Made by a program: the position numbers and the translations under genes
NCBI GenBank assembly: GCA_033344875.1
Contig: JAWPMO010000001.1
Span: forward strand, 2,443,595 to 2,507,594
Direction: 5' to 3'
Origin: Ilumatobacteraceae bacterium
GTDB taxonomy: Bacteria; Actinomycetota; Acidimicrobiia; Acidimicrobiales; Ilumatobacteraceae
Length of the DNA: 64,000 nucleotides
The notes under the pieces: generated by a model
The model's database searches: none
Seen by the model: the letters and a program-made list of their open reading frames with translations, nothing else
What the model was told of the DNA's origin: nothing
Shown: piece after piece, positions 17,758 to 25,927 of the stretch
Layout: every line of letters starts with the position of its first letter
Position numbering within the stretch: position 1 is the first letter of the stretch

Positions 17758-19233
17758 TCAGTAGCTGCCGGGCGTGAACTCGAGGTCACCGGCGACACGG
17801 GGCGTCCGCACGACGACGTAGTCGGCATGCACGTCCATCGTGGCGCCGTCGATGCCGGCCAGCCACCACAGCCGCGGCTCGGCGCCGACGATCCGGAACT
17901 CGGTCCACGCCGACGGATCGGGATGTAGCGGGTCGAGGGTGAGCAGTAGCGCTCCGTGCTGCCACTCGGCTCGTGTCAGCACCACCTCGGCGACGTCGAT
18001 GCCGACCACCTGCGGGCACGGTTCGAGCGGGGCGGCCGACAGCGCTGCCCACCGACCGGGCCCGCCGGCCTCGGCCGCCGCCAGGAATGCGTTGTACTGC
18101 CCACGCGGGTGCGGCTCATCGAGGCCCATCCCCCACGTGAACTCGCCGCGCCCGGTGTCCCACGTCGGTTCGTACGACGCCTCGATCGCGGCGGCGAGCC
18201 GGGTGGCCAGATCGTCGAGCCCCCACTCGCGGGCGAGCAGCAGCGACGACGCCGGAGCACGACCGGCCCGGAGCGGCGTGGCGATCTCACCGTCGTACCC
18301 CACGGTGGCGCACCCGGCGGCGAACAGGCGCCGCGCGTCCGTCGGCATCTGCGGCGCGGCGTAGAACGCCGTAGTCAGCGCTGCATGCGCCGGGAGTCGA
18401 TGGTGGACGTCTTCGACCGGGTCGTAGTAGAAGGTGGTCGTCGTCGGCAGGTCGTCGCGATCGAGATCGAGGTAGTGCTCACGGGCGTATGCCCACCACG
18501 ACTCGAATGCCTCGGCGTGGAAGCTCGTTCCGTGTCGGTGGTCGTGGAGCCTCAGACCGAGGCCGGCGCCGGCCAGTCAAAACGGCCAGACCTTCGTGTT
18601 CTCGCAATGGCAGCCGATCGGGGTGTCGCGCCACTGATCGCGGAGGTTCCGGGCGATCTGCGAGTGCGACCACGTGAACGAGTGCTCGCCGTCACGGATC
18701 AGCTCGAACGGCTCGTTCCACCGGTCGGTGTCGCCGGGGCCGTTGGCGACCATCGAACGGACCCCGAGCAGCACCAGGAGGAAGCCCTGGTAGAAGAGCA
18801 TGCCGTCGGCGGCGATCGGGTCGATCTGCACGCCGTACGGTTCGATGCCGTTGGCCGTCCAGCCCGGCACGTCGTACTTCCCCCACAGCTCTTCGGGGAC
18901 GAACATCCGGTAGACGTCGGGGTACTCGCCACGGTCGGGGTCGTGCCCGAACTGCGTCAGCCAGTCGGCCGCCGACCACCACTGGGTGTGCCGTTCGATC
19001 AGCTGGTCGAGGATCGCCACGTACGGCTCGGTCCACGCCGGTGTGCGATGCGCCATCAGCCCCATCGCATACGACGAGTCGACCAGGTCGAAGCGGTGCC
19101 AGCTCGCCATCGGCGGGTCGGACCGGTCGTCCCAGTGCGGGTGCGGGTGGCCCTCGCGGCTCCAGTCGTCGGGCGTGTGGGCCTTGCGGTGGAGGTACCG
19201 CAGCCACCCGACCGATCGCTGCGACAACCCCAC
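17758..19233 (-). CDS. Linalool dehydratase/isomerase-like protein with in-frame UGA (candidate selenoprotein)
   Basis: One frame runs from a GTG at 19233 to 17758 (491 residues) interrupted only by TGA at codon 219 (18577-18579). The upstream half carries HRFDLVDSSYAMGLMAHRTP, FTWSHSQIARNLRDQW and GCHCENTKVWPF. The downstream half continues LAGAGLGLRLHDHRHGTSF in the same frame. This order resembles the LinD family, whose active site uses two cysteines nine residues apart (C171 and C180, from memory). Here C210 and the UGA at 219 have exactly that spacing. A GGUCU-loop stem-loop lies 13 nt behind the UGA. Alternatives are a nonsense mutation or a sequencing error. If read as separate pieces, they are 18577-19233 and 17758-18348. 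Confidence 0.62.
18549..18563 (-). promoter_or_regulatory. Putative bacterial SECIS stem-loop
   Basis: On the transcript strand GCCUC-GGUCU-GAGGC forms a 5-bp stem with a GGUCU loop at +19 to +23 after the UGA. From memory, the E. coli fdhF SECIS has the same GGUCU in its loop at about the same distance. The bulged U of the E. coli element is not evident. A GC-rich palindrome (GGCCGGCGCCGGCC) between UGA and loop could compete for pairing. Confidence 0.45.
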
Positions 19234-24220: not shown

Positions 24221-25927
24221 TCAGAAGAGGAAGTAGCGCTGGGCCATCGGCAACTCGGTGGCCGGTTGCTCGACGATCAGCTCGCCGTCGATCCGCACGG
24301 CGAAGGTGTCCGGGTCGATGGCGATGTCGGGGCGTGCGTCGTTCAGTGGCATGTCGGCCTTGCCGACCGAACGGGTGTCGACCACGGGCACCATCTCCCG
24401 CTCGACCCGCACCCGACCGGGCAGGCCGTCGTCGAGCGCGGCCTGCGACACCCACGCCACCGACAGGCCGGGTGCCACCGCCGGCGCGGCACCGAACATC
24501 GGCCGCGGCAGCTCGGGCTGCGGCGTGGGGATCGACGCGTTGGCGTCGCCCATCGTCGCCCAGGCGATCATCCCGCCCTTGACGACGACGTGCGGCCGCA
24601 CGCCGAAGAACGCCGGGTCCCACAGGACCAGATCGCCGAGCTTGCCGACCTCGACCGACCCGACCTCGCGCTGGAGCCCGTGGGCGATCGCCGGGCAGAT
24701 CGTGTACTTCGCGACGTAGCGCCGAGCCCGCAGGTTGTCGGCCGTGCCGTCGCCGTCGAGCGGGCCGCGGCGGACCTTCATCACGTGGGCGGTCTGCCAC
24801 GTGCGGAGCACGACCTCACCGATGCGGCCCATCGCCTGGGAGTCGGACCCGATCATCGAGATCGCGCCCAGGTCGTGGAGGATGTCCTCCGCCGCGATCG
24901 TCGACGGCCGGATGCGGCTCTCGGCGAACGCCAGATCTTCGGGCACCGCCGGGTTGAGGTGGTGGCACACCATCAACATGTCGAGGTGCTCGTCGACGGT
25001 GTTGACCGTGTGCGGTCGGGTCGGGTTGGTCGACGACGGCAGCACATTGGCGTGGGAGGCGACCGTCATGATGTCGGGCGCGTGGCCGCCGCCGGCGCCC
25101 TCGGTGTGGAACGTGTGGATCGAGCGGCCGGCGATCGCGGCGAGCGTGCTCTCGACGTACCCCGCCTCGTTGAGCGTGTCGGTGTGGATCGCGACCTGCA
25201 CACCCGACTCGTCGGCGACGCGCAGTGCGGCGTCGATCGCCGCCGGCGTGGTGCCCCAGTCCTCGTGCAACTTGAAGCCCGAAGCGCCGGCTCGCAACTG
25301 CTCCCACAGCGCGTCGGCGTTGACCGTGTTGCCCTGCCCCAACAGCGACACGTTGAGCGGCCAGTGATCGACGGCCTCGAGCATCCGCTCGAGGTGCCAC
25401 GCGCCGGTGACCGTGGTCGCCTTGGTGCCCTCGGCCGGCCCGGCGCCTCCGCCGATGATCGTCGTGATGCCCGATCCGAGCGCCTCGTCGAACAGCTGGG
25501 GGCAGATCAGGTGCACGTGACAGTCGATCGCGCCGGCGGTGACGATCTTGCCGTTGCCGGCGAGGATCTCCGTCGACGGGCCGATCTCCAGCGCCGGGTG
25601 GATGCCGTCCATCGTGTCGGGGTTGCCGGCTCGACCGATGCCGACGATCCGGCCGTCGCGCACACCGATGTCGGCCTTGACGACACCCCAGTGGTCGAGG
25701 ATCACGGCGCCGGTGATCACGAGATCGGGTGCACCGTCGGCGCGCGTGCGCGTCGACTGGCCCATCGACTCGCGGATGACCTTGCCGCCGCCGAAGACCG
25801 CCTCGTCGCCGCCGACGCAGTGGTCGTCGGTGACCTCGATCCAGAGATCGGTGTCGGCAAGGCGGATCTGATCGCCGGTGGTCGGGCCGAACAGCGCCCG
25901 GTAGCGGGAGCGGCTGATGTGGCTCAT
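24221..25927 (-). CDS. ureC: Urease subunit alpha UreC
   Basis: 568 residues, full length for the catalytic subunit, which hydrolyses urea to ammonia and carbamate. It opens [20 protein letters not shown]. Nickel ligands and active-site residues are visible: HVH in [12 protein letters not shown], the carbamylated Lys in [11 protein letters not shown], His in [25 protein letters not shown], the flap CHHLNP, and Asp in [15 protein letters not shown]. It overlaps ureAB by 4 bases (ATGA). All catalytic residues look intact. Confidence 0.97.

Follow-up and report, generated by a model that had tools for sequence, protein, structure and literature searches.

A linalool dehydratase-like gene with an in-frame UGA most likely represents an undescribed selenoprotein family

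The linalool dehydratase-like gene of the Ilumatobacteraceae bacterium analysed here encodes a selenoprotein with a probability of roughly 93%: the in-frame UGA at codon 219 would be decoded by SelB as selenocysteine (Sec), giving an enzyme with the barrel fold of the linalool dehydratase/isomerase LinD that carries Cys210 and Sec219. Support for this reading comes from the sequence, the predicted fold, the conservation of the gene, the Sec machinery and a covarying hairpin. The gene and its relatives most likely form an undescribed selenoprotein family in which UGA means selenocysteine, and some relatives appear, judged by their codons, to carry two seleniums.

A LinD-like reading frame that continues beyond a UGA codon

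The window, which is the whole stretch of 64,000 nucleotides that was analysed, sits within one contig of 4.97 Mb; the coordinates of all features are listed in Table 1. A preliminary description of the gene had claimed a frame that is open apart from a lone TGA at codon 219, and translation of 19233-17758(-) indeed gives 491 residues, with codon 492 being the terminal TGA. When the UGA is read through, the protein reaches 54.9 bits with the Pfam Ldi model, which is over the curated cut-off of 26.1; by itself, the N-terminal piece stays under this cut-off with 25.0 bits, and the C-terminal piece alone has no Pfam Ldi match. C210 and UGA219 lie nine residues apart, and both the phmmer and the family-profile alignment place them opposite C171 and C180 of LinD. 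The reading frame is conserved beyond the UGA: past this codon, the window and its relative L032 differ by 0.24, 0.24 and 0.46 at codon positions 1, 2 and 3, respectively. A second PF18566 gene was sought in the same genome and none was found.

General use of UGA as a sense codon was considered and rejected, as the gene itself stops with TGA and the aligned relatives have no other internal TGA.

Table 1. Features of the LinD-like gene and their positions in the window
Feature	Position	Strand	Remarks
LinD-like (Pfam Ldi) coding sequence	17758..19233	-	GTG start; 491 aa if TGA219 is read through; terminal TGA 17758-17760
Codon 210, TGC (Cys)	18604..18606	-	aligns with LinD Cys171; TGA in 21 distinct relatives
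In-frame TGA, codon 219, proposed selenocysteine	18577..18579	-	aligns with LinD Cys180
Pfam PF18566 (Ldi) stretch, residues 131-361	18151..18843	-	spans the UGA
SECIS-like hairpin for UGA219	18548..18564	-	stem GGCCTC/GAGGCT; GGTCT loop 18554-18558; minimal hairpin -8.6 kcal/mol
Possible remnant of the first-UGA hairpin of UGA/UGA genes	18568..18590	-	6/7 pairs kept in the window; remnant reading suggested by the tree
Strand-rich C-terminal extension, ~residues 405-491	17761..18021	-	outside the part matched by LinD chains

Distribution of Cys and UGA at the two catalytic columns

Relatives of the gene were found in 6 of 221 genomes of the family, 39 of 397 genomes of the order and 9 of 395 genomes of the class, with the own genome counted in each search. 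The named genomes have 145 confirmed relative loci, 80 of which were taken into the analysis. The alignment, with TGA read through, has 117 rows and 100 distinct sequences; three relatives of less than 150 aa (L024, L025 and L140) were left out of the count of states in these 100, and the distant Cys/Cys protein L141 was kept in the 100 and excluded from the counts on codons, the hairpin and the tree. Identical nucleotide contexts were counted once, which leaves 57 Sec and 36 Cys contexts. One further match (L026) is weak and was not recovered by tblastn, and seven genomes of the order (G323, G288, G561, G244, G393, G417 and G305) have a partial match without TGA and are unclassified. All 36 members of alignment A6 match PF18566 with an E-value of 0.001 or better.

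At the columns of C210 and U219, the 100 distinct sequences have Cys/Cys (38), Cys/UGA (37, including the window), UGA/UGA (21) or Ser/His (2), and two sequences do not cover these positions; thus, all classified sequences but the two with Ser/His have Cys or Sec at both columns. The preliminary description had proposed to look for Cys at the TGA column in homologues, and the 38 Cys/Cys sequences have it there. Internal stops are confined to these two columns (we regard five further stop cells, in alignment columns 580-582 close to the C-terminus, as the natural ends of the proteins). Judged by record titles, genes with UGA are present in Acidimicrobiia, Gammaproteobacteria, Alphaproteobacteria, Entotheonella, Myxococcales and Chloroflexota. 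Phage records had no match to the LinD-like gene; among plasmids, two Streptomyces records matched, and the one that was read (L028) is Cys/Cys.

A pseudogene with a nonsense mutation, or a TGC or TGT miscalled as TGA, would differ from an intact Cys gene by a single base, and a TGA in a lone genome would look just the same. However, TGA occupies the same column in 37 Cys/UGA and 21 UGA/UGA distinct sequences and no other internal column, and the differences to L032 show the codon periodicity of a conserved frame past the UGA. The recurrence of the TGA in independent genomes rules out a read error, and we give almost no weight to either of these explanations.

Two genomes contain more than one such gene. 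G546 has the Cys/UGA gene L109 (G546:C230) and a partial match with two TGA codons (G546:C101:2601-3752). The metagenome-assembled genome DCYM01 (Candidatus Microthrix UBA2110) has a Cys/UGA gene (L049) and a Cys/Cys gene (L073); the latter is nearly identical to gammaproteobacterial genes and its contig is probably a contamination.

Machinery for selenocysteine insertion

All four genes that the preliminary description had named for a search, selA, selB, selC and selD, are present in the genome. selB and selA, with 275.9 and 396.1 bits, respectively, adjoin each other and both exceed their cut-offs, the tRNA-Sec is predicted in agreement by Rfam (66.6 bits) and ARAGORN, and selD scores 367.2 bits. 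Together with the Cys in homologues and the recurrence of the TGA across independent genomes, this supports the selenoprotein reading that had been put forward. The selD gene (L019; G000:C1:4687734-4688651, - strand) has itself one in-frame TGA, within a GAG-U-GCKL motif, and the SelD of this genome is probably a selenoprotein too.

Within the order, selA is found in all 27 UGA carriers (E-values of 1.1e-93 or lower) versus 247 of 397 genomes overall, a difference with a nominal probability of 1.5e-6 under an assumption of independent genomes that does not hold. Two of the 27 carriers, G496 and G372, were included by their TGA count; G372 was later read as L139. selA is absent from the three Cys/Cys carriers of the order that were read (G408, G493 and G585, which are 58-89% complete), and both Ser/His carriers possess it. 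The test for selA covered all UGA carriers examined. selA was over the cut-off at each of 24 UGA loci, of which seven or more are proteins already present in the order set, and it is present in the relatives from the same genus (G106) and the same family (G133). Outside the Acidimicrobiia, 11 of 13 UGA carriers have selA over the cut-off, compared with 14 of 32 Cys/Cys carriers (Fisher test, 0.02); with a further selA in G706, the Cys/Cys carriers are a mixed group. The two misses are L061 (G856) and L064 (G859), UGA genes in gammaproteobacterial drafts with no clear selA; these drafts may be incomplete bins or may have lost the machinery.

The UGA could also be decoded as Cys or as another ordinary amino acid, or it could serve as a selenium-dependent switch that yields a functional short product. 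Insertion of Cys would work, given the homologues with Cys at this column, and 2 of the 13 UGA carriers outside the Acidimicrobiia lack a clear selA. Ordinary decoding is, however, difficult to reconcile with the full set of selA, selB, selC and selD in the genome, with selA in all UGA carriers of the order (27 of 27) and with a SECIS-type hairpin that is conserved together with the UGA (see below), and a short product would end eight residues past C210 and miss about half of the predicted fold. We therefore consider these alternatives very improbable and read UGA219 as selenocysteine.

A conserved SECIS-like hairpin downstream of the UGA

The stem-loop that had been described downstream of the UGA is present, with GCCTC beginning 13 nucleotides past the TGA and the GGTCT loop at +19 to +23. 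The loop position given there for Escherichia coli proved accurate: in fdhF of strain K-12, GGTCT lies 18 nucleotides past the UGA, the same distance as in the window. This loop and its spacing are what the window shares with the SECIS of formate dehydrogenase H (fdhF), which belongs to an unrelated enzyme and has other stem sequences.

Comparison of the 57 distinct Sec contexts shows strong constraints on the nucleotides: codons 6-8 past the UGA are CTC in 56 of 56 cases with Leu, GGT in 57 of 57 and CTG in 57 of 57, whereas the same residues are encoded by 6, 4 and 6 codon types, respectively, in the 36 Cys genes. The stem consists of columns 16-21 and 27-32; it has no unpaired cell across 54 distinct Sec sequences and shows compensatory changes at two neighbouring pairs (CG 38, UA 11, UG 3 and GC 2 at one; CG 53 and UA 1 at the next). 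None of 500 shuffles reached the covariation score of these 54 sequences, and RNAalifold recovered the same stem unaided. In 35 distinct Cys genes, 53.8% of the stem cells pair, compared to 51.8% in shuffles. GGTCT at offset 18 is found in 57/57 Sec genes versus 5/36 Cys genes, the full stem in 56/56 Sec genes without N versus 1/36 Cys genes, and loop and full stem together in none of the 36 Cys genes. One sequence with an N, L054, was left out of alignment A2. The motif GGTCTCGGTCT contains GGTCT twice, and in 15 genes the first copy is at offset 12.

The proposed folding of the 40 nucleotides past the UGA had a divided outcome: the hairpin emerges from the comparison between species and does not when the 48 nucleotides of the window are folded alone, as these prefer a GGCCG/CGGCC hairpin (z -0.06). 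Thus, it is the species comparison and not the single sequence that shows the SECIS-like hairpin. An Rfam search over the UGA region returned a chance match only (13.7 versus 99 bits). The bSECIS model, as outlined in PMC13188914, has a loop of 3-9 nucleotides with a G in the first two places, a stem of 4-16 base pairs, a distance of 16-37 nucleotides to the UGA and a minimum free energy of at most -7.5. The window hairpin fits this model with its 5-nucleotide GGUCU loop, 6-bp stem and spacing of 18 nucleotides. At -8.6, its minimal hairpin lies within the energy limit, as does one variant at -7.7; two of the four minimal hairpin variants that were folded (-6.5 and -6.2) lie outside.

With UGA219 in the ribosomal A site, SelB loaded with Sec-tRNA-Sec would bind this hairpin, the GGUCU loop of which starts 19 nucleotides downstream, and the SelB-bound complex would insert selenocysteine rather than allow termination. 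The predicted product is a LinD-type barrel enzyme of 491 residues with a strand-rich C-terminal extension, and its active site would have Cys210 and Sec219 at the positions of the two essential catalytic cysteines of LinD. The presence of selenium in the protein, the binding of SelB and the reaction are the parts of this model that we infer.

Relatives with two UGA codons

UGA also stands in place of the first catalytic Cys (C210 of the window) in 21 distinct relatives. These UGA/UGA genes have a second predicted hairpin past the first UGA, UCUGGCC-N9-GGCCGGA, with 98.6% of the cells paired; it is also found by RNAalifold. The second UGA falls into the loop of this hairpin, which is likely the recoding element of the first UGA. 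The hairpin needs GGA as a Gly codon, and GGA is used in 19 of 21 UGA/UGA genes versus 1 of 30 Cys/UGA genes that have Gly at this position (Fisher test, 8e-11, a value that is too small since the sequences are related). In the Dehalococcoidia gene L071 the hairpin is extended to nine pairs, and the 59 nucleotides that hold both hairpins have a z-score of -2.66. No pair of the first-UGA hairpin has a change on both sides among the UGA/UGA genes, and in 9 of the 21 the 9-nucleotide loop does not open with the G expected by the bSECIS model. The shared downstream hairpin, which is 45 nucleotides past the first UGA and outside the range of 16-37 nucleotides, may also be what recodes the first UGA. 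An apparent C-terminal extension of L071 was dismissed as an artefact of translating past a stop that is likely real.

Selenoproteins with several Sec residues are known: in the 2026 catalogue, a small subset of the families has 2-3 Sec, among them MduS, MbdU and FmdB-like proteins, and none of the multi-Sec families catalogued there is described as PF18566 or linalool dehydratase-like (PMC13188914).

A phylogenetic tree was constructed from 97 rows, with the two trait residues removed and rows shorter than 280 aa left out. One clade of 25 rows (SH-aLRT 100) consists of 20 UGA/UGA, three Cys/UGA (the window, L029 and L030) and two Ser/His rows, and the UGA/UGA gene L071 is placed outside of it. 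The starred branches of the tree require that the UGA/UGA label changed at least twice; the branch order within the 25-row clade is poorly resolved. The window is nested among UGA/UGA genes, which indicates that its Cys210 is likely a reversion from Sec. SECIS-like remnants after a change from Sec to Cys have been described (PMC1794560). Of the seven pairs of the first-UGA hairpin, the window has six, and L029 and L030 have all seven; since six pairs are also reached in two other Cys/UGA genes and in 2 of 36 Cys/Cys genes, they argue only weakly for a remnant in the window.

In the Ser/His relatives, which are nested in the UGA/UGA clade on a long branch (L044/L124 and L045/L125), Ser and His replace the catalytic residues (GPHSENTKVWPEH). 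These proteins have perhaps acquired a new function that needs neither selenium nor a thiol.

Predicted fold, gene neighbourhood and possible function

The AlphaFold2 model, made with 36 aligned members, has a mean pLDDT of 92.2. It matches LinD chains with a Z-score of 33.0 (2.6 A over 321 residues), and the next fold follows with 19.8. Sequence identity to LinD is about 20%, and the profile alignment has Phe in the column of LinD His129, which we take to be an active-site residue; the reaction may therefore differ from that of LinD. Accordingly, the label LinD-like of the preliminary description holds for the fold and for both Cys columns and is not extended to the reaction.

LinD (Ldi) of Castellaniella defragrans (PF18566; PDB 5g1u, 5hlr and 5i3t) has the same predicted fold and the C171/C180 columns with the same spacing, with Cys at both catalytic positions. 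The window differs by the UGA in place of Cys180, the Phe in place of His129 and the strand-rich C-terminal extension of about 87 residues. Mutants C171A and C180A of LinD are named in PDB titles. Substitution of either residue (Cys170/179 in the numbering of PMC6600392) by Ala or Ser inactivates the enzyme; both cysteines are essential, have been assigned to acid/base catalysis and must stay reduced (PMC6600392). The linalool isomerase Lis of Thauera linaloolentis also has a LinD-like catalytic domain and needs a reductant, but differs by its N-terminal membrane anchor with four predicted helices; its description in PMC4791888 is not seen to mention selenium.

In the window, a gene for an aldehyde dehydrogenase follows 1.2 kb past the 3' end of the LinD-like gene. 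At other loci, neighbours include genes for CoA ligase, enoyl-CoA hydratase, CoA-transferase, phosphotriesterase-like and VOC proteins. Neighbouring ORFs were called mechanically and several of the resulting clusters are antisense artefacts; a search for a single conserved gene partner in 69 loci and the window found none. Ten SAR86-type loci (L080, L083, L085-L090, L092 and L096, where L080 and L081 represent the same gene) have a glutathione-S-transferase-like (GST-like) gene on the same strand as the Cys/Cys match and 28-35 nucleotides upstream of it; the two genes likely form an operon. Two Cys/UGA loci also have a GST-like gene within about 100 nucleotides, L069 on the same strand and L098 on the opposite one. 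The neighbourhood fits with catabolism of hydrophobic unsaturated compounds and fixes no substrate.

A selenol is ionised at neutral pH. The selenol of Sec219 would most likely take the part of the LinD thiol, as an acid/base or nucleophilic catalyst for an unsaturated alcohol or a similar hydrophobic substrate. With the selenocysteine retained, a different function is conceivable: Cys and Sec could form a redox couple (a selenenyl-sulfide, or a diselenide in UGA/UGA proteins) for thiol chemistry or peroxide reduction. Such a couple would be in line with the replacement of redox-active Cys by Sec in most of the bacterial families studied in 2006 (PMC1794560), with the GST-like genes near ten SAR86-type Cys/Cys genes, L069 and L098, and with the loss of LinD His129; on the other hand, the fold is LinD-like and not thioredoxin-like, the catalytic cysteines of LinD have their acid/base role in the reduced state (PMC6600392), and the neighbouring genes vary between loci. 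We regard a redox function as possible, with the odds somewhat against it. The odds are likewise somewhat against the wider proposal of a new selenoenzyme class with selenols that serve acid/base or covalent carbon chemistry and not redox reactions, in which the UGA/UGA relatives would obtain two selenols from two overlapping recoding elements, with the second UGA in the apical loop of the first one's hairpin, and in which the first Sec would have arisen at least twice and been lost again in the lineage of the window.

Relation to known selenoproteins

PF18566 is absent from Table 1 of the 2026 catalogue, which comprises 119 prokaryotic selenoprotein families and subfamilies (PMC13188914), and the main text of deep-Sep (PMC12013277) mentions neither linalool nor dehydratase. 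In the open-licence literature on linalool dehydratase, wording on selenium was encountered only as selenite in growth medium (PMC4847356, PMC3691188). This agrees with the earlier statement that no described selenium-containing LinD relative is known: none was found in open-licence literature, and an account elsewhere is possible. A known family under a different name was also considered and rejected, as none of six members compared with NCBIfam came near a cut-off (best E-value 0.013, 15.2 versus 275 bits). The genes are thus not among the hypothetical selenoproteins of the catalogue, so far as the NF models of these are in that release. Standard gene calling ends genes of this kind prematurely at the UGA, a possible reason why the family was missed.

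According to the catalogue, bacterial selenoproteins are mostly redox enzymes or have redox motifs, and a thioredoxin-like fold prevails among those that are characterised (PMC13188914). Selenium in a barrel enzyme, with a relative that hydrates and dehydrates terpenes, would widen the known biological use of this element. The natural series of Cys/Cys, Cys/Sec and Sec/Sec active sites would offer a test of what selenium buys, and the Sec/Sec genes raise the question of how one ribosome recodes two UGA codons that are 27 nucleotides apart, with the first hairpin likely enclosing the second UGA.

Elsewhere in the window, at 25483-25772 (+), Rfam reports a match to 5_ureB_sRNA with 52.9 bits, which most likely reflects similarity to a urease coding region rather than the presence of that RNA.
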